NCBI RefSeq assembly: GCF_003581645.1
Contig: NZ_QXFK01000008.1
Span: 1-64,000 of the forward strand
Length of the DNA stretch: 64,000 nt
Reading direction: 5' to 3'
Origin: Pelagerythrobacter aerophilus
GTDB taxonomy: Bacteria > Pseudomonadota > Alphaproteobacteria > Sphingomonadales > Sphingomonadaceae
In this document: in pieces, positions 27,886 to 59,389 of the stretch
Position numbering within the stretch: the stretch's first letter is position 1
How the letters are laid out: the number at the start of each line of letters is the position of its first letter
Program-made: the position numbers and the translations under genes
The notes under the pieces: generated by a model
What the model was told of the DNA's origin: nothing
Seen by the model: the letters and a program-made list of their open reading frames with translations, nothing else
Databases searched by the model: none

Positions 27886-28761
27886 TTATCGGCTTTCGAT
27901 CCTGCTGGCTTTCATGAACTCGACGAGGTCTGGCCATGAGGGTGGAGTGTATCCGGTGGCCATGCGGAAGCGATCTGAGTTGAGTGATCGATCGATGACC
28001 AAGGACGCGTCAGGCTCGATCGCGATATTATGATCGTAGGCTTCGCCCACTAGCCGCAGCAGATCATATTTGGTGATCGGATCGACCGAAACATGATAAA
28101 GGCCGGTGAGCTCAGTGCGCGGCAGCACGAAATCACGCACAACGCGAGCCAACTCGGCCGTCGGCAGTCCTGAAAAGATTGCCTTGGTAAAGCCCCTGAT
28201 CGCATGCTTCTGCGCCAGAAACCATTCGACCAGCCCATTCGCCGACGCGAGTTCGTGACCGATGATGGACGTGCGCAGCGTCACCGCGTTCGGCCCCGTA
28301 ACCTCACCTAGATATTTGCTGAGCCCATACACGTCGTTCGCGTCGGCCTTATCCGTTTCCAGATAATTACCCCTCGCGCCTGAAAAGACGCAGTCGGTGC
28401 TGACATGGACCAAGCGCGCGCCCGCGATCTCGGCGAGCGTCTGCAGCCTGTGTGGCAGCAGCGTGTTGACTGGCACCGCCGACGTGACCGCGTTGCCACC
28501 CGCGAGTTGCTTGATCAACCCGACCGCATTGATCACAATATCGGGTCGCGCTGCGGCGAAAACTCCCGCCAAGCTGTCGCTGCTCCCGGCATCGAGACCG
28601 GTGATGAAGCTCGCGTCGCCGGCGATTTTCTCCAGCCGCGGGCTGAGTGAACGTACCGCGCCGATCGCTGCATAGCCCTTAGACTGCGCAAAGGTGCGCA
28701 GCATCGCTGTACCCAGCATCCCGCTGGCGCCCAGCACCAGCACTCGGATTGGTTCGGCCAA
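27886..28761 (-). CDS. RmlD-like NAD(P)-dependent sugar reductase (WbvR-like)
   Basis: A 291-residue short-chain reductase: nucleotide-binding VLVLGASGMLGTAML, VSTDCVFSGARGNY, and the active-site YGLSKYLGE (YxxxK). It resembles dTDP-4-dehydrorhamnose reductase but lies between CapE- and CapG-like genes. CapF/FnlB, the reductase of the L-FucNAc route, carries an extra C-terminal cupin domain (about 370 residues), absent here; an RmlD-like reductase is what the UDP-L-QuiNAc (WbvB-WbvR-WbvD) route uses. The start is a TTG, supported by AAGGAGG six bases upstream. Confidence 0.82.
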   Translation of the reverse strand: MAEPIRVLVLGASGMLGTAMLRTFAQSKGYAAIGAVRSLSPRLEKIAGDASFITGLDAGSSDSLAGVFAAARPDIVINAVGLIKQLAGGNAVTSAVPVNTLLPHRLQTLAEIAGARLVHVSTDCVFSGARGNYLETDKADANDVYGLSKYLGEVTGPNAVTLRTSIIGHELASANGLVEWFLAQKHAIRGFTKAIFSGLPTAELARVVRDFVLPRTELTGLYHVSVDPITKYDLLRLVGEAYDHNIAIEPDASLVIDRSLNSDRFRMATGYTPPSWPDLVEFMKASRIESR

Positions 28762-28808
28762 GAACCGCCTCCTTCAATTCGTTCGCCCCGGACTACCCGG
28801 ATCGAAAT

Positions 28809-29843
28809 TCAACCGCGCGTCCAGCCCTCGAGCTCCGCTTGCACTTCGGGAAGGCTGAGCAGAAGCTGCCTCACCCCCTCCACGTCGAGCCTCTCGGTGT
28901 TGTGCGAGTGATAATCATCCATCGTTGCGGTCGTCGTTTCCCCCTCGCTGAAATAGGCGGCATAGTTAAGATCGCGGTCATCGAGCCGCAGCCGCCAATA
29001 GTCGCCCATATCTTCTGCGGTACCGAGTTCCTGCGCGCTGGCCAGCGTCTCATAAAGCTTCTCGGCATGGCGCCAGCCGATCGCCTTCACAGGATGGTTG
29101 GGCGATCCGAACAGTTCCGCGAGCGCGGTGGCGAGGTCGGCGATCGTTGACGCCGCAGCCTTCTTGATGAACAAATCGCCCTGCCGCGCGTGCTCGAAAG
29201 CGAAGCGCACCAATGCGACGCTGTCGCGCAATGGCATCAAAAAGCGTGTCATGTTGGGCTCGGTCACCGTGATCGGCTGTCCGTTCTTGATCTGACGAAT
29301 GAACAATGGGATCACCGATCCGCGCGAGCACATAACGTTGCCGTAGCGTACGCAACTGATCGTCGTGGCGGCTTCCGGGCCGATCTCCCGGGACGCGGCC
29401 TGTACCATCTTCTCCATCATTGCCTTCGATATGCCCATCGCGTTGATCGGCTGCACTGCTTTGTCGGTGGATAGGCAGACCAGGCTGCCGACCCCATGTT
29501 CAATCGAAGCACGGATGACATTTTCCGACCCGAGGACATTCGTCCGAACCGCCTCCATCGGAAAGAATTCGCAACTCGGAACTTGCTTTAGAGCAGCCGC
29601 ATGAAACACGGCTTCAACACCCTTGACGGCACGCGACACGCTCTCACGATCACGTATGTCGCCAATGAAAAAGCGTGCCCGCGCATCCCCCAACCTGTTA
29701 CGCAAAGCGTCCTGCTTCTCCTCATCTCGGCTGAGGATGCGCACCTCTTCAATGTCGCCCCTGAGGAGCTCATGAACCATCGTTTTGCCGAACGAGCCGG
29801 TTCCTCCAGTAACCAGCACCCTCCGAACTTTACCTGTGCCCAT
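28809..29843 (-). CDS. CapE/FnlA-type UDP-GlcNAc 4,6-dehydratase / 5-epimerase
   Basis: A 344-residue extended short-chain dehydrogenase with RRVLVTGGTGSFGKTMVHE, FHAAALKQVPSCEFFPMEAV, LSTDKAVQPINAMGISKAMM and RYGNVMCSRGSVIPLF. In this family methionine replaces the usual catalytic tyrosine (M-x3-K), as seen here. CapE/FnlA removes water from UDP-GlcNAc and epimerises C5 (and C3), the entry step to UDP-L-FucNAc and UDP-L-QuiNAc. It is soluble and lacks the membrane domain of PglF/WbpM, present in the second dehydratase at 31550-33535. Confidence 0.88.
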   Translation of the reverse strand: MGTGKVRRVLVTGGTGSFGKTMVHELLRGDIEEVRILSRDEEKQDALRNRLGDARARFFIGDIRDRESVSRAVKGVEAVFHAAALKQVPSCEFFPMEAVRTNVLGSENVIRASIEHGVGSLVCLSTDKAVQPINAMGISKAMMEKMVQAASREIGPEAATTISCVRYGNVMCSRGSVIPLFIRQIKNGQPITVTEPNMTRFLMPLRDSVALVRFAFEHARQGDLFIKKAAASTIADLATALAELFGSPNHPVKAIGWRHAEKLYETLASAQELGTAEDMGDYWRLRLDDRDLNYAAYFSEGETTTATMDDYHSHNTERLDVEGVRQLLLSLPEVQAELEGWTRG

Positions 29844-52799: not shown

Positions 52800-53510
52800 T
52801 CAGAGCTGTTCGTCGCCCTCGTTCTCCGCGGCGCGGCGGGCTTCGAGCCAGGCAGCGGCTTCGGCTTCCTGGGCGGCTTCGGCAGCGGCCTTCTCGTTCG
52901 CCTCGCGCTCGGCACGCAGTTCGGCGATCAGCTTCTCGCGATCCGTGCCCGAGTCGGCCGCTGGTACTGGCGCTTCACCGTCGGCGCCGGCCTTCTTCGC
53001 CGCCTTGGCAACAACCGCGTCGAGCTCGCGCTGCGAGCACAGGCCGAGCGTCACCGGATCCTTCGCCTGGATGTTCTGGATGTTCCAGTGGCTGCGCTCG
53101 CGAATCGCCGCGATCGTGTTGCGCGTGGTGCCGATCAGCTTGGAAATCTGCGCATCCGAAATCTCCGGATGGTTGCGCAGGATCCAGGCGATACCGTCGG
53201 GCTTGTCCTGCCGCTTGGACACCGGGGTGTAGCGCGGGCCCTTGGTCCGCGTCACTTCGACCGGCGCGCGCTGCATCTTGAGCGCATAGCTCGGATCGGC
53301 CTGACCGCGCTCGATTTCCTCCTGCGTCAGCTCGCCCGAGTGGATCGGATCACGCCCGGTGTACTTGCTGCCCGCGAGGTCGTCGGCCATCGCCTGGACT
53401 TCGAGGATATGCAGGCCGCAGAAGTCGGCGATCTGCGTGAAGCTGAGCGAAGTGTTGTCGACGAGCCAGGTGGCGGTCGCATGCGGCATCAGCGGGGTGG
53501 GTTGCGCCAT
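52800..53510 (-). CDS. trcR: TrcR/DUF1013 family cell-cycle transcriptional regulator
   Basis: A 236-residue protein of the DUF1013 family, named TrcR after a cell-cycle regulator found in alphaproteobacteria. N-terminal conserved core: LMPHATATWLVDNTSLSFTQIADFCGLH, EVQAMADD, DPIHSGELTQEEI, and a helix-turn-helix-like PEISDAQISKLIGTTRNTI followed by IRERSHWNIQNI and DPVTLGLCSQRELDAVV. The last 60 residues are an alanine/glutamate-rich coil. With SciP it is the second cell-cycle-type regulator in the window. Confidence 0.88.
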   Translation of the reverse strand: MAQPTPLMPHATATWLVDNTSLSFTQIADFCGLHILEVQAMADDLAGSKYTGRDPIHSGELTQEEIERGQADPSYALKMQRAPVEVTRTKGPRYTPVSKRQDKPDGIAWILRNHPEISDAQISKLIGTTRNTIAAIRERSHWNIQNIQAKDPVTLGLCSQRELDAVVAKAAKKAGADGEAPVPAADSGTDREKLIAELRAEREANEKAAAEAAQEAEAAAWLEARRAAENEGDEQL

Positions 53511-53525
53511 GATCGAAACTGTCCT

Positions 53526-53558
53526 GAAAATATAAGGGCCGCCCCTCGCGGAGCGGCC
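53526..53558 (-). terminator. Rho-independent terminator of the glycolipid operon
   Basis: GGCCGC (53537-53542) pairs with GCGGCC (53553-53558) around a GC-rich loop. On the minus strand the hairpin is followed by CTTATATTTTC. It lies between the end of the glycosyltransferase gene and the trcR start, so it ends the operon coming from 55.6 kb. Confidence 0.7.
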
Positions 53559-53625
53559 GTTGCACAGGCGATTTAGGCGATGCGTCATGCAAGGGCAAGC
53601 TTTTCGGCCTCCCCCATCGGGAAGC

Positions 53626-54702
53626 TCAAGCGGCGAGCGGCTCCGCGTCGAGGGCCGCGAGCCCGGCGAGGAACTGATCGGTCGCCGCATCCCACGAATA
53701 GCGTGCGCCCAGCTCGGCACAGTCTGCGCGGTCGCTGAACACGGCGCCGGCAATCGCCCGGTCGAGATCTTCGGACAGCGCACCGACTCGATCGGTCACG
53801 ATGTCGCGCGGCCCCGGCACGGGAAACGCAGCGACCGGCGTCCCGCAAGCGAGCGCCTCGATCATGACCAGTCCGAAGGTATCGGTCCGGCTGGGAAAGA
53901 CGAAGACATCGGCATGGGCGTAGCATCCCGCCAATGCACGGCCGCTGCGGCGCCCGAGGAAATGGGCATCGGGAAACTTTGCACTGAGCTCGGCGAAGGC
54001 GGGGCCATCACCAACGACGACCTTGCTGCCCGGATAGCTGCCGCCCAGAAACGCCTCGAGATTCTTCTCCACCGCGACGCGGCCGACATAGAGCTGGATC
54101 GGTCGCGGGAGGTCGTCGAACTCGGGCGGTGCCGGCGCGTCCCGATTGAAGCAGGTCAGATCGACCCCGCGACTCCAGGGATGGAGGCGGCGCAGGCCGT
54201 GCGCGCGCAGTTCCTCGCGAATGCTCTCTGTCGCGACCAGCACTTGGCGCGAAGGCGCGTGAAACCAGCGAATGTAGCGCCAGAACAGCGCGGGCGAGAG
54301 GCCGGTGCGCCGGGCGACGTATTCGGGAAACTGCGTGTGGTAGGCGGTCGTGAAGGGAATACCGCGCACCGTACAGAACCGCCGTGCGGCGAGGCCCAGC
54401 GGCCCTTCGGTGGCGACGTGGATCGCGTCGGGCGCCAGGGCCGTAAGGCGCCGCCCGATCGCGCCGGGCAGCGGCATCGCCAGGCGAATGTCGGGATACG
54501 TCGGGCATGGCAGCGAGCGGAAGCCTTCGGGCGAGATTACCTCCACCTCGTGCCCGCGCCTGCGGAGGACATCGCATGTTGCCGCGAGGGTGCGGACCAC
54601 GCCGTTCATCTGCGGCGCCCAGGCGTCGGTGACGATGGCGATCCGATGCGGATAGGGCCGCACGGCGTCCGCTTCGGGCACGACTACCTCCATCCGGCTC
54701 AT
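53626..54702 (-). CDS. Glycosyltransferase, probable diacylglycerol glycosyltransferase (Agt-like)
   Basis: A 358-residue GT-B glycosyltransferase (GT4): RIAIVTDAWAPQMNGVVRTLAAT at the N-terminus, TAYHTQFPEYVARR in the acceptor domain, LYVGRVAVEKNLEAFL, and the donor-site block DVFVFPSRTDTFGLVMIEALACGTPVAAFPV. This pattern is that of plant-type SqdX and related lipid glycosyltransferases. Its start overlaps the stop of the metallophosphoesterase gene as ATGA. In marine and soil alphaproteobacteria a coupled phosphoesterase (PlcP) and transferase (Agt) replace phospholipids by glycolipids in phosphate starvation; this pair fits. Confidence 0.82.
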   Translation of the reverse strand: MSRMEVVVPEADAVRPYPHRIAIVTDAWAPQMNGVVRTLAATCDVLRRRGHEVEVISPEGFRSLPCPTYPDIRLAMPLPGAIGRRLTALAPDAIHVATEGPLGLAARRFCTVRGIPFTTAYHTQFPEYVARRTGLSPALFWRYIRWFHAPSRQVLVATESIREELRAHGLRRLHPWSRGVDLTCFNRDAPAPPEFDDLPRPIQLYVGRVAVEKNLEAFLGGSYPGSKVVVGDGPAFAELSAKFPDAHFLGRRSGRALAGCYAHADVFVFPSRTDTFGLVMIEALACGTPVAAFPVPGPRDIVTDRVGALSEDLDRAIAGAVFSDRADCAELGARYSWDAATDQFLAGLAALDAEPLAA

Positions 54703-55607
54703 GCAGCCGCCTTGCGCGTAGGTGAGGCCGCGACGTCATATTGCGCGCGCCGCGCCATTTCCTCGGGCCAGTGGAGCAGCTCCATGCGCCCGTCGAAATG
54801 CTCGACCAGCGCGGTGCAGCCTTCCACCCAGTCGCCGTCGTTGTAGTATTCAATGCCGTCGAAGGCGCGGATTTCGGCAGTATGGATATGGCCGCACACG
54901 ACGCCGTCCACACCCCGCTCGGCCGCGGCACGGGCGACAATCTCCTCATAGCGGCTGATGAACTCGACCGCGTTCTTGACCTTGTGCTTGGCCACTTTCG
55001 ACAGCGACCAGTACGGCAGTCCGAACGCCTTGCGCACGAGGTTGACCCATCGGTTGAGCCCCATGAGCAGGTGGTAGAGGACATCGCCCACCACCGCGAG
55101 CCAGCGGTGCGCAAGCATGATCGCATCGAACTCGTCGCCGTGGAGCACCATCAGCCGGCGCCCGTCGGCCGTATCGTGAAAGGCCGCGCGCCGGATCTCG
55201 ACCCCGCCGAAGTTCATGCCCGAGAACGGGCGGAGCATCTCGTCGTGATTGCCGGGGATGTAGACGATCCGCGTCCCGCGCTTGGCGCGCTTGAGAATGC
55301 GCCAGACCACATCGTTGTGCTCCGCCGGCCAGTAGACCTTCTTCTTCAGCCGCCAGCCGTCAATGATGTCGCCGACGAGGTACATGGTCTCGCTGTCGGT
55401 GCTGTCGAGAAAGTCGATCAGCATCGCGGCGTTGCAGCCCTTGGTACCGAGATGGATGTCGCTGATCCAGATTGTGCGGAACTTTCGCCGCTTGCCGTCG
55501 ACCGGCTCCGGAATCGCGCTCCTTACCGGCGGCAGGCTCGCTATCGTCGCCAGTTCGGCCAGTCCGCCCCGAAGCCCATTGATCCGTTCTTCGCCCACCG
55601 CCCGCAC
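54699..55607 (-). CDS. PlcP-like metallophosphoesterase (phospholipase C type)
   Basis: A 302-residue protein with the metallophosphoesterase ligands DIHLG (D50, H52), GDIIDGW (D80, D83), GNHDE (N120, H121), HGDEFD (H156) and GHIHTAEI (about 245). Automatic annotation would call it UDP-2,3-diacylglucosamine diphosphatase (LpxH). The SDIHLGTKGC opening, YLVGDIIDGWRLK and YWSLSKVAKHKVKNAV blocks are instead those of PlcP, the Sinorhizobium phospholipase C induced by phosphate limitation. Context (glycosyltransferase partner, Pho-box-like sites) supports PlcP. No ATG opens the frame; the GTG at 55607 or 55598 is the likely start. Confidence 0.82.
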   Translation of the reverse strand: MRAVGEERINGLRGGLAELATIASLPPVRSAIPEPVDGKRRKFRTIWISDIHLGTKGCNAAMLIDFLDSTDSETMYLVGDIIDGWRLKKKVYWPAEHNDVVWRILKRAKRGTRIVYIPGNHDEMLRPFSGMNFGGVEIRRAAFHDTADGRRLMVLHGDEFDAIMLAHRWLAVVGDVLYHLLMGLNRWVNLVRKAFGLPYWSLSKVAKHKVKNAVEFISRYEEIVARAAAERGVDGVVCGHIHTAEIRAFDGIEYYNDGDWVEGCTALVEHFDGRMELLHWPEEMARRAQYDVAASPTRKAAA

Positions 55608-55627
55608 TCCGCTAGCGAATGCATTTC

Positions 55628-55645
55628 ACGTCAGGCACATGACAG
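55628..55645 (-). promoter_or_regulatory. Candidate Pho box (proximal)
   Basis: Read on the minus strand: CTGTCAT, four bases, CTGACGT. The first repeat is a perfect Pho-box half-site and the second matches five of seven; the spacing (11 bases start to start) is exact. It lies 21-38 bases before the phosphoesterase start. PhoB binding is inferred, not shown. Confidence 0.5.
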
Positions 55646-55692
55646 GCAATTGTTACAGGCGATTCACGGTTTGATGACCGTTCGTGGTCAAC

Positions 55693-55710
55693 GTGACAAT
55701 GTAACGACAG
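55693..55710 (-). promoter_or_regulatory. Candidate Pho box (distal)
   Basis: Read on the minus strand: CTGTCGT, four bases, TTGTCAC; each half matches the consensus CTGTCAT/C at six of seven positions, with exact 11-base spacing. It lies about 86-103 bases before the phosphoesterase start. Two matches in 80 bases make chance less likely. Confidence 0.55.
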
Positions 55711-55938: not shown

Positions 55939-56280
55939 TCAGATCGGGTGTGCTGGCCCATCGTTATGAGTCCCGACTTGCAGCGCGATGGGCAGGACTA
56001 CCGGGAGCAGAAGGATTGCCGCCCCCGGCATAACCGCATCTACGCCAATCTCCTCCTCTTCGTCCCAACTCGGCTCTGGGTCGGGCTCTTCGGAGCGATA
56101 CCCCATGGGGTCAGCGAACCAGCGATCAAGATCGGCTAGGTACCATCCGGCACTGCGCGCACCGATTTTTACTTGGGACGGGAACGTCCCCTCGGCGATC
56201 TTGCGATAGAGCGTCGAGCGCGAGAGTCCGGTGCGATCCAGGACTTCTCTGAGGCGAAGTATCTTGTCAGGCGACGACAT
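55939..56280 (-). CDS. AlpA-family HTH regulator with C-terminal hydrophobic tail
   Basis: A 113-residue protein. Residues 1-60 are a typical AlpA/MerR-like winged helix-turn-helix (ILRLREVLDRTGLSRSTLYRKI, then EGTFPSQVKIGARSAGW and DLDRWFADP). AlpA proteins activate excision genes of prophages and integrative elements. Unusually, an acidic linker (EEPDPEPSWDEEEE) is followed by a hydrophobic stretch (AAILLLPVVLPIALQ), making it longer than common AlpA (about 70). The start MSSPDKI was chosen because AAGGA lies eight bases before it. No integrase is adjacent, so it may be a remnant. Confidence 0.8.
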   Translation of the reverse strand: MSSPDKILRLREVLDRTGLSRSTLYRKIAEGTFPSQVKIGARSAGWYLADLDRWFADPMGYRSEEPDPEPSWDEEEEIGVDAVMPGAAILLLPVVLPIALQVGTHNDGPAHPI

Positions 56281-56612
56281 ATGAGTTTCCTTTCTCAGCA
56301 AGCGTGACGACCCGCACGCAGCTTCGGTCCCACGGTAAGTTCTCTCAAGAGGATGCGACGGCGCTCGGCAGCGGGCTGCGGCGAACTGCGCCGGAAAGTA
56401 ACCGAGGTGCGTTAGAATGGCGGAGTCTCACTACCGCTCGCCGACAAGCGAGGGGCTTCCGGTTGCCAAGTGCCCGCGTCTCTTGATGCCAACTGGCGCT
56501 TTTCGAGACTCGTGATTCGCGCCGCGCGAATTTCTGGCCATTAGCTTACACAGAGAGGCATGTTTCGGCCGCGCTTGCCATTGATCGGATATTGCTCGAA
56601 GATTCATCGGAC
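56281..56612. other. Intergenic region between AlpA-like and MNT-HEPN genes
   Basis: 332 bases between divergent starts. No gene recognised. It should hold promoters in both directions; GCTTGCC (56573-56579), a short match to the direct repeat further right, lies 34-40 bases before the nucleotidyltransferase gene. No clear -10 box follows it. Confidence 0.4.
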
Positions 56613-57533
56613 ATGCGCACCGATCTCGATCATCTTCCCGCAAACAAGCAGCGCGAGCTTGAGCGCATCGTCGAGATCATTTTCGACGAGTTCGGTGCCG
56701 CGACCGAGAACGCGACCGGCCCGCGCAAGGGCGCGCGCATTCTCAAGATCATACTGTTCGGCAGCCATGCACGCGGCGACTGGGTCGATGCGCCGATGTC
56801 GGCCAACCAGTACAAGAGCGATTACGACATCCTGGTCATCGTCAGCCAGAAGGAGATGACCGACCGCGCGGCGTACTGGGCGAAGGCCGAGGAACGGCTG
56901 ATCCGGGCCTATACGATCGAGAAGACGCTGCGCACGCCGGTCAACTTCATCGTGCATTGCCTGCATGAGGTGAACGATGGCCTCGCACACGGCCGCGTGT
57001 TCTTCATGGAGGTCGCAAAGGATGGCATCGCGCTCTACGAAGCCGACGACCGCGAACTCGCCACGCCCAAGCCAAAGACGCCGGAGCAGGCGCTGGAAGC
57101 GGCACGGGAGTATTTCGACGAGTACCTGCCTTCTGCACTTCAATTTCTGATACAAGGAAAGGAAGCTAGCGAACGGGGTTGGCAGAAGAAGGCGGCCTTC
57201 GAACTACATCAAGCCACCGAACGCCTCTACCAAGGGCTCCTTCTCACCCTGACCTTCTACACGCCCTACAACCACAACATCGCCTTCCTGCGCTCACTCG
57301 CGGAAGGTCTCGATCGGCGGCTCCACGGCATTTGGCTGGAGGAAAGCCGCCGCGAGCGCGCGATGTTCCAGAAGCTGAAGGAAGCCTACACCAAGGCTCG
57401 CTACTCCAAGCACTACAAGATCAGCGAGGAAGAGCTGACCTGGCTCGGCGAGCGGGTCGAGGAACTCGGCCGCGTGGTCCACGAGGTCTGCTCCGAACGG
57501 ATCGCCGCCCTGGAAGCCGCAGCGCGCAAGTAG
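56613..57533 (+). CDS. Nucleotidyltransferase and HEPN domain protein
   Basis: A 306-residue fusion. The N-terminal half is a minimal nucleotidyltransferase with KIILFGSHARGDWVDAP and the metal-binding SDYDILVIVS (G-S and D-x-D intact). The second half (from about 165) is a HEPN domain (AAFELHQATERLYQGLLLTLTFY, then YNHNIAFLRSLAEGL). In MNT-HEPN toxin-antitoxin systems the two are separate proteins, HEPN being an RNase toxin silenced by adenylylation or AMPylation from MNT; here they are fused and no clear R-x4-6-H RNase motif is seen. The start ATG at 56613 was preferred to an upstream TTG. Confidence 0.87.
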   Translation: MRTDLDHLPANKQRELERIVEIIFDEFGAATENATGPRKGARILKIILFGSHARGDWVDAPMSANQYKSDYDILVIVSQKEMTDRAAYWAKAEERLIRAYTIEKTLRTPVNFIVHCLHEVNDGLAHGRVFFMEVAKDGIALYEADDRELATPKPKTPEQALEAAREYFDEYLPSALQFLIQGKEASERGWQKKAAFELHQATERLYQGLLLTLTFYTPYNHNIAFLRSLAEGLDRRLHGIWLEESRRERAMFQKLKEAYTKARYSKHYKISEEELTWLGERVEELGRVVHEVCSERIAALEAAARK

Positions 57534-58221: not shown

Positions 58222-58394
58222 CCTCACCACGAGATGGAACACTGGCGGCCATCTCGAGGATAGTCCTTGCCAGGCATCAAGTAGGTCCGGCCGCTACGGT
58301 CGGACGGTTGCTGTAAGGCCGCACCGCGGCACACAGCGGACACCGCTTGCACATCCGCGCATCCATGCGCGGACCGCCTGTGTGCGAGCTTTCC

Positions 58395-58886
58395 ATGCTT
58401 ATTCCCACTCCAAGCGACGTCTACGCGCGCGAGGTCGTGATGGCGCGCGTTGCCCATCTCGTCCGCCGCAAGCAGCAGGAGATCGAGCGGATCACCCGCA
58501 TCCTGCGCGCCTGCTTCGAGCCGGCGCAGGTGCAGGCGCCTGAGCCAGGCGAGATCCAGCAGATCATCCTGATCGGCCCCTATGCGCGGCGATCCTGGTT
58601 TGAAGACCAGCAAACAATCCACTTCTCCGACTACGAGCTGTGGATCGTCGTCAACCATCCGCTGCTTACCGACGAGCGCTGCTGGCAGCGCGCGCAGACC
58701 ATCATCGAGCGCGAGCTGGGCAACCGCTGTGCAGTCGGCCTCGCAATCTACTCTGAAGCCGACATCCGCATCGCCGAGGCCGAGCGCGACACCTTCGTTC
58801 TCGACCGGATCGAAGCCGGGATCACCCTCTACCACGCTTCGCGTGATGCTCCGCTCAACGTGCGCGAGCGGAGGGCACGGCCATGA
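58395..58886 (+). CDS. Degenerate nucleotidyltransferase-like protein
   Basis: A 163-residue protein that aligns by eye with the N-terminal half of the MNT-HEPN protein at 56.6 kb: a helical start (MARVAHLVRRKQQEIERI), then IILIGPYARRSWFEDQ where active enzymes have FGS-ARG, and SDYELWIVV where they have D-x-D (the second acid is glutamate). The nucleotidyltransferase active site therefore looks altered and may be inactive. No HEPN domain follows. Its stop overlaps the sigma factor start as ATGA. The region 58031-58394 before it holds the predicted promoter and no other convincing gene. An in-frame ATG at 58347 is a less likely start. Confidence 0.7.
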   Translation: MLIPTPSDVYAREVVMARVAHLVRRKQQEIERITRILRACFEPAQVQAPEPGEIQQIILIGPYARRSWFEDQQTIHFSDYELWIVVNHPLLTDERCWQRAQTIIERELGNRCAVGLAIYSEADIRIAEAERDTFVLDRIEAGITLYHASRDAPLNVRERRARP

Positions 58887-59389
58887 CCGCGCCCAACTCC
58901 AGCGCCGCGTTCGACGCATTCTATCGTGCCGAGCATAAGCGGATGCTTCGCTACTTCCGAAAGAGAGCTGGCCCAGATGCTGCGCCCGATCTGGCGCAGG
59001 AGGCTTTCACGCGGGTGCTTCGCAGCGGCGCATTCGAGCGGGTTGAATTTCCTGGGGCCTATCTGACCCGAACTGCGCGCAATCTCTTGATCGAGCGGAC
59101 GCGCCGCAAGATGCGGCGACCGGCAATAATCCATCCGTTCGATGAGGAACGCGATGCCTCAGTCCGGCCCGAACAGGCATGGCGGATCGAGGCCGCGGAT
59201 GTACGGCGTGCCTATTGGCGAGCACTACGCGCCATGCCGCGCAGGACCCGGCACATATTCCTGCTCCATCGGTTGCGACATCTAACCTACAAGCAAATCG
59301 CGCAGCACCTCGGCGTCAGCAACAAGACGGTGAAATATCACATGGAGCGTGCCTTGGCGCGGTGCCGTCAGGCGCTAGCACCCAGCTAA
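58883..59389 (+). CDS. ECF RNA polymerase sigma factor (FecI-like)
   Basis: A 168-residue sigma-70 family factor with only regions 2 and 4. Region 2: FDAFYRAEHKRMLRYFRKR, DLAQEAFTRVLR and YLTRTARNLLIERTRRK. Region 4: LRAMPRRTRHIFLLHRLRHLTYKQIAQHLGVS and KTVKYHMERALARCR. The RHLTYKQIA and pattern of region 4 are FecI-like, yet no FecR anti-sigma or TonB receptor gene is adjacent. Translational coupling to a degenerate nucleotidyltransferase suggests that protein could regulate it. Confidence 0.9.
   Translation: MTAPNSSAAFDAFYRAEHKRMLRYFRKRAGPDAAPDLAQEAFTRVLRSGAFERVEFPGAYLTRTARNLLIERTRRKMRRPAIIHPFDEERDASVRPEQAWRIEAADVRRAYWRALRAMPRRTRHIFLLHRLRHLTYKQIAQHLGVSNKTVKYHMERALARCRQALAPS

Follow-up and report, generated by a model that had tools for sequence, protein, structure and literature searches.

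The window analysed here is a stretch of 64,000 nucleotides of Pelagerythrobacter aerophilus (assembly GCF_003581645.1, contig NZ_QXFK01000008.1, positions 1 to 64,000 of the forward strand). It contains a gene encoding a metallophosphoesterase, of the kind usually labelled LpxH, which is directly followed by a gene for a glycosyltransferase of family GT4. The locus raises the question of whether the phosphoesterase serves lipid A synthesis or whether both genes act together to remodel the membrane lipids when phosphate is scarce. Our analysis indicates that the pair is very probably a PhoB-controlled plcP-agt lipid-remodelling operon. The reading as PlcP and Agt is supported as a whole by the tree and identities of the phosphoesterase, the signature of the glycosyltransferase, the recurrence of the pair and the scores of the Pho boxes. 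The elements of the operon and of its upstream region are the following:

54699 to 55598, minus strand: plcP, predicted PlcP-type phospholipase C (metallophosphoesterase), 299 amino acids, GTG start, Pfam Metallophos match
53626 to 54702, minus strand: agt, predicted GT4 diacylglycerol glycosyltransferase, 358 amino acids, Pfam GT4 domains
55628 to 55645, minus strand: candidate proximal Pho box, CTGTCAT GTGC CTGACGT, halves 7/7 and 5/7
55652 to 55691, minus strand: four putative half-sites, each exactly 11 bp from the next, forming the better conserved core upstream of the operon
55693 to 55710, minus strand: candidate distal Pho box, CTGTCGT TACA TTGTCAC

Both genes overlap through an ATGA (54699 to 54702), so that the two-gene operon with a coupled GT4 gene described in the first-pass annotation of this DNA was present.

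Identity of the phosphoesterase

In pairwise comparisons, the phosphoesterase of the window was 49% identical to PlcP of Sinorhizobium meliloti, 51% identical to PlcP of Pseudomonas aeruginosa and 25% identical to LpxH of Escherichia coli. The S. meliloti reference, a presumed orthologue, was taken from the record of strain Ak57, whose gene we take to be the studied plcP by its LuxR-type neighbour. The P. aeruginosa reference, likewise a presumed orthologue, is a plasmid-borne copy that was equated with PA3219-PA3218 by gene order; three plasmid records of this species carry a plcP match. Both reference proteins were 46.6% identical to each other, a value that fits both identifications because PA3219 and S. 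meliloti PlcP have been reported to share 46% identity (PMC8528852).

The LpxH equivalog model TIGR01854 gave the window protein 31.2 bits, far below its cut-off of 190.35, whereas the same model gave 388.9 bits to E. coli LpxH and 38.9 bits to S. meliloti PlcP. In addition, the tree proposed in the first-pass annotation was built with 26 rows. With a support of 100/99 it set 21 PlcP-like rows, the window protein included, apart from five others (four of LpxH and one LpxH-like from Bacteroides); several branches are long, and the order among the distant PlcP rows was not settled. Metallophosphoesterases carry the motif set D-H, GD, GNHD/E, H and GH-H, and the window protein presented DIHLG at residue 47, GDIIDGWR at 76, GNHDE at 116, HGDEFD at 153 and CGHIHTAE at 235. 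By these comparisons the protein is PlcP and not LpxH, as had been proposed from the sequence of the window alone.

The reading of the gene as an LpxH for lipid A synthesis beside an unrelated glycosyltransferase was rejected on account of the 25% identity, the score below the cut-off and the separate clade, and we consider it extremely improbable in spite of two points in its favour, namely that, among 32 matched plasmid records, 24 name the protein UDP-2,3-diacylglucosamine diphosphatase, which agrees with the earlier statement about its usual label, and that neither LpxH nor LpxI was matched elsewhere in the genome. The first-pass annotation had named such a lack of any other LpxH or LpxI as a finding that would refute PlcP. 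The lack was observed but is no objection, because LpxC and LpxB likewise gave no match. The searches for LpxC, LpxB and LpxI in the source genome were all negative, although each was matched in control genomes such as those of E. coli or Caulobacter (LpxA, LpxD and LpxK were not searched). For a second LpxH, only a scrap of 12.6 bits was obtained in a search that was not exhaustive, since the window protein itself was missing from its matches. A lipid A pathway for an LpxH to serve appears to be absent, and the LpxH label is misleading for this protein, a PlcP in a genome without a detected lipid A pathway.

The glycosyltransferase

The GTcp enzyme of SAR11 bacteria has the conserved motifs GRVAXEKN and FPSXTDTFG and a catalytic dyad, His104-Asp256, whose change to alanine abolishes activity (PMC8231724). 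The product of agt contained NGVVRT at residue 33, GRVAVEKN at 207 and FPSRTDTFG at 269, and its His122 and Asp274 are separated by 152 residues, exactly as in the dyad of GTcp. It was also 52% identical to an Agt1-type protein of P. aeruginosa. By this published signature and dyad the GT4 gene is predicted to encode an Agt-type glycolipid synthase, so that its earlier assignment as Agt was sustained.

When the source genome was searched with Agt, two contig copies of the gene were obtained together with three weaker matches (90.9, 31.6 and 27.1 bits). FPSxTDTFG and GRVxxEKN were absent from the loci of all three, which were inspected for a second Agt. The next-best GT4 match was 33% identical and reads NPSITETFG where Agt has FPSxTDTFG.

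We also considered that PlcP could act as proposed while the GT4 enzyme mainly glycosylates ceramide, giving a glycosphingolipid in an outer membrane free of lipopolysaccharide. The lack of matches for the searched lipid A genes (LpxC, LpxB and LpxI) would suit this idea, and Caulobacter forms a glycosphingolipid under phosphate starvation via Sgt1 and Sgt2 (PMC6445935). However, according to the same source Sgt1 and Sgt2 are specific for ceramide and the diacylglycerol glycolipids are unaffected, and the window enzyme bears the Agt signature, has relatives that use diacylglycerol and shares its operon with an enzyme that would produce it. A ceramide substrate is consequently very unlikely.

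Recurrence of the gene pair

A PlcP match was found in 67 of the 118 related genomes searched, and the loci of relatives examined here are the best 30 of those 67 genomes, the window's own included. FPSxTDTFG was encoded downstream of plcP in 29 of these 30 loci, and GRVxxEK(N/G) as well in 24. A second set of named loci comprised the best 80 of 576, which by their titles are mostly Erythrobacteraceae and Sphingomonadaceae; here FPSxTDTFG followed plcP in 77 of 80 and both motifs in 71. The three exceptions among the named loci were L078, with the variant motif FPSRSDTFG, and L080 and L110, whose contigs stop 162 and 118 bases beyond the match. The nearest of the named PlcP loci place the source bacterium close to the Erythrobacteraceae. 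Among the relatives, the exception was locus L003, from member G003 of the genus, in which an open reading frame (ORF) of 390 amino acids on the opposite strand (317 to 1489) splits plcP from the start of agt. This intervening ORF is IS110-like by eye and constitutes a natural break of the operon.

Outside the order, Roseomonas gilardii and a P. aeruginosa plasmid carried the pair too; in the plasmid pHPA0698-2 the plcP match and an Agt-type gene share 4 bases. Different genes adjoin plcP in Mitsuaria and in the S. meliloti record. Two records showed peculiarities. In the related genome G012 (86% complete, 7% contamination), plcP occurs at two places of contig C1 (about 28751 to 29517 and 2837692 to 2838460), each in separate matched pieces. 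The record CP090106.1 is titled plasmid pSymB, yet it measures 3.7 Mb, the size of a chromosome, and may be mislabelled.

The upstream control region

According to the first-pass annotation, two Pho-box-like sites precede plcP. Both are present, but the control region exceeds them, with a better conserved array lying in between. The proximal box has the perfect half-site and the 5/7 half that had been described. The distal box attains the claimed 6/7 in both halves only when C and T both count at position 7; under the stricter reading its halves are 6/7 and 5/7.

The scoring with a PhoB weight matrix that the annotation had suggested was carried out with eight boxes from the E. coli promoters of phoA, phoB, pstS and phoH, which belong to the Pho regulon. 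As these boxes were chosen by their fit to the consensus, the matrix is independent of the window but not of the consensus. Of the 127,966 positions scored on the two strands of the window, the proximal box ranked first (20.4 bits) and the distal box second (17.3 bits), the third place having 14.0 bits. Pho-box-like sites were also found in the source genome before a phosphate-selective porin gene, a PstS-type gene and a PstC-type gene. With a matrix made from these three, which were picked for lying before such genes, the distal box ranked first and the proximal box seventh. In the whole genome, sites with up to two mismatches to the consensus occurred at 37 places, four of which are the two boxes in their two contig copies. 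A PhoB match was present as well (343.8 bits, cut-off 296.2). A further observation was made at 620750 to 620778 of contig C6 of the source genome (G000), where two overlapping Pho-box-like sites lie at the start of an ORF for a TonB-dependent receptor, possibly another member of the Pho regulon.

The classic box of two half-sites, with up to three mismatches, was present in the sense orientation in 21 of the 30 upstream regions of relatives and in the antisense orientation in 4, while the reversed pattern gave 7 and 3. A Markov simulation (400 runs) gave a mean of 0.54 per 30 loci, lower than the reversed control, and the latter was preferred as yardstick. In the 80 named loci, the two-half-site matrix yielded 48 in sense and 17 in antisense at a threshold of 8 bits. 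Within the genus, a site with up to four mismatches occupied the place of the distal box in all seven members, and the proximal box was found with up to three mismatches in four of the seven and not in the other three.

The array between the boxes consists of TTGACCA at 55685 (4 mismatches), CGGTCAT at 55674 (1), CCGTGAA at 55663 (3) and CTGTAAC at 55652 (1). In the seven genus members 23 of its 40 columns were invariant, and 18 of 29 over the last three half-sites, against 55 of 143 in the whole upstream region. In an alignment of ten rows, the seven genus members and three others, the array held 16 of the 27 columns that were invariant in all ten. Its periodicity was then examined in 100 upstream regions (110 loci, ten of which were dropped for shared 40-mers) by a test that was devised after the alignment had suggested the array, and so was not blind, and on loci that are related and do not amount to 100 independent tests. 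The best run of three half-sites had a mean of 6.9 bits when spaced by 11, whereas no other spacing between 8 and 15 exceeded −0.06, and the best run of four had 4.6 bits at 11 against at most −6.9 elsewhere. On the coding strand, 11 was the best spacing in 70 of the 100 regions. The region upstream of the operon carries the 7-bp direct repeats at 11-bp spacing on the coding strand that are expected of a member of the Pho regulon, and we infer from its sequence that it is a phased PhoB array.

Several observations, however, weigh against the PhoB-controlled operon or make the evidence for it less sharp. Sites with up to three mismatches were hardly more numerous in the whole genome (181 + 192) than in the reversed control (179 + 172). 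Since this count barely exceeds the control, a single weak Pho-box match means little, and two good boxes within 83 bp mean more than one such match. Four sites in the genome have no mismatch or one, and among them the porin site alone lies at a recognised phosphate gene; the others precede a transglycosylase gene (L034), a response-regulator gene (L035) and an unscanned ORF (L036). In the seven genus members, 6 of 18 and 7 of 18 columns of the boxes were invariant, a proportion no better than that of the whole upstream region. At strict thresholds the sense bias of the 80 named loci disappeared (10 in sense and 10 in antisense at 12 bits, 6 and 7 at 14 bits). The contrast was also weaker for pairs of half-sites (8.5 bits at spacing 11, 7.6 at 13), and 11 was the commonest spacing on the antisense strand too (37 of 100 regions). 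The best-scoring triple of the window was the proximal one and not the core array. Furthermore, no sigma-70 promoter-like site was found for the operon, and 51 of the 118 related genomes had no plcP match at all.

These data could indicate that the same enzymes are encoded in an operon that is not under PhoB, its sites being due to chance or decayed. The near absence of a genome-wide excess, the lack of strand bias at strict thresholds, the lack of any extra conservation of the boxes and the absence of the proximal one in three of the seven genus members would agree with this. Because the boxes did not stand out in conservation from the sequence around them, our estimate for this alternative was raised a little and that for the PhoB-controlled operon lowered slightly. 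Nevertheless, the two boxes hold the first two ranks in 64 kb, the 11-bp array appears in many relatives and PhoB is present, so that an operon independent of PhoB remains unlikely.

Predicted function and products

In the PhoB-controlled operon as we propose it, phosphorylated PhoB would bind the upstream half-sites at low phosphate and switch on plcP and agt. By homology, PlcP would remove the phosphate head group from membrane glycerophospholipids and leave diacylglycerol, onto which Agt may transfer glucose, glucuronic acid or both from the UDP-sugar. The resulting monoglucosyl-diacylglycerol (MGDG) and glucuronosyl-diacylglycerol (GADG) would replace phospholipids, and the phosphate that is spared could be reused.

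By analogy with Erythrobacter sp. NAP1, both lipids are expected from one Agt, because a single Agt bearing the signature was detected and genes of the UDP-sugar-dehydrogenase type are present (the family cut-off was exceeded at three distinct loci, two of which recur on the duplicate contig). The main alternative is an Agt that uses glucose only, like Agt1 of P. aeruginosa, in which case it would make MGDG alone, the glucuronosyl lipid coming from another enzyme or being absent. The closest of the compared enzymes is indeed Agt1, at 52% identity to the Agt1-type protein, and PMC8528852 describes it as accepting only UDP-glucose, which speaks against both lipids being made by one enzyme. On the other side, according to PMC8231724, the glucosyl and glucuronosyl lipids are both made by Agrobacterium Agt, and GTcp accepts glucuronate as well as glucose and galactose; NAP1 makes both lipids (PMC4796936), and the next-best GT4 match of the source genome lacks the FPSxTDTFG motif. 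We consider a glucose-only enzyme a real possibility, if not the expected one.

As to other phosphorus-free lipids, the BtaA family (PF11899) gave no match in the source genome, its control being positive in 1 of 14 genomes, and neither did PF13444, which we take to be the family of OlsB-type acyltransferases, with a control positive in 2 of 14. Since neither family was matched, betaine and ornithine lipids made through BtaA or OlsB-type routes are not expected.

From the whole we put forward, tentatively and with confidence somewhat short of even, that plcP-agt of these relatives is governed by a long phased series of degenerate PhoB half-sites, of which the window has up to eight within 83 bp, the middle three or four being better conserved, and not by a single Pho box. 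Glycosyl-diacylglycerols would then be the sole recognised phosphorus-free substitute for phospholipids, given that no lipid A pathway and no BtaA or OlsB-type match was detected.

Comparison with known systems

Both glycolipids, the arrangement of plcP and agt and the occurrence of Pho boxes in clusters with plcP have already been published (PMC4796936, PMC9239053, PMC8528852). The nearest case is NAP1, in which agt also lies downstream of plcP and which forms MGDG and GADG on phosphate starvation, putative Pho boxes being reported in plcP gene clusters in the same work (PMC4796936); the NAP1 sequences themselves are outside the compared loci. NAP1 differs in that it also makes the betaine lipid diacylglyceryl-trimethylhomoserine (DGTS) (PMC4796936), whereas the genome of the window has no BtaA-family match. 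A literature search on lipid remodelling in Erythrobacter returned PMC4796936 only, and one on Agt glycolipids under phosphate limitation in Erythrobacter returned none.

P. aeruginosa PA3219-PA3218 (PlcP-Agt1) resembles the operon in its 51% and 52% identical proteins, in the 4-base gene overlap of the compared record and in having a Pho box upstream (PMC8528852). In contrast, Pseudomonas is described as having a second Agt (Agt2) for the glucuronosyl lipid (PMC8528852), and the search of the source genome here brought up no other protein that bears the signature. The S. meliloti gene encodes a PlcP that is 49% identical, but no agt adjoins it in the compared record. GTcp of Pelagibacter HTCC7211 and Agrobacterium Agt, which were compared by motifs alone, share the signature and the dyad with equal spacing (PMC8231724). 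E. coli LpxH has the metallophosphoesterase family in common with the window protein, but it belongs to another clade, is 25% identical and has no lipid A pathway to serve in what was found here. What is new in the present work is a sharper picture of the control region of a known kind of operon, and the analysis supplies a footprint of the likely phosphate-control region.

Gene boundaries and neighbouring features

The full extent of the plcP ORF is 54699 to 55607 on the minus strand, with a first GTG start at 55607. The codon at 55598, which is the second GTG here, is ATG in all six other genus members with the locus (L003 to L008) and in 12 of 29 relatives overall. Because ATG occupies the same codon in relatives, 55598 was taken as the likelier start of translation. 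Downstream of agt, two further features were annotated:

53537 to 53558, minus strand: predicted stem-loop terminator, lying after agt and before the trcR-family gene
52800 to 53510, minus strand: trcR-family gene (PF06242 TrcR), downstream and outside the operon, start placed by eye

The terminator announced at 53.53 kb was thus located. It has a stem of nine pairs, eight of them G-C, followed by a T-rich tail (CTTATATTTT). Scanning of 3 kb gave two terminator-like matches, and the scan is in itself not significant; as shuffled sequences gave a mean of 1.7, the support for the terminator comes from its position and not from the number of matches. The trcR-family gene shares the frame of the ORF 52800 to 53783.

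Just upstream of the operon and in the same orientation, a gene for an AlpA-type prophage regulator (55939 to 56301) possibly marks the edge of an island. The product encoded at 56592 to 57533 combines HEPN and nucleotidyltransferase domains and weakly resembles MntA; a near copy of it sits divergently and immediately upstream of plcP in L003. The ORF at 58347 to 59389, which adjoins a gene for an extracytoplasmic function (ECF) sigma factor, had no Pfam match.

Finally, the operon is present twice in the assembly. Contig C14 (135 kb) is a reverse repeat of contig C6; the stretch of the operon is identical in both, as are 60,000 bases beyond the window, and the match breaks only where about 1.1 kb of C14 remain. 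A redundant contig is more probable than a true duplication, and it may add to the contamination value of 4.71% of this genome, which is rated as 99.97% complete.

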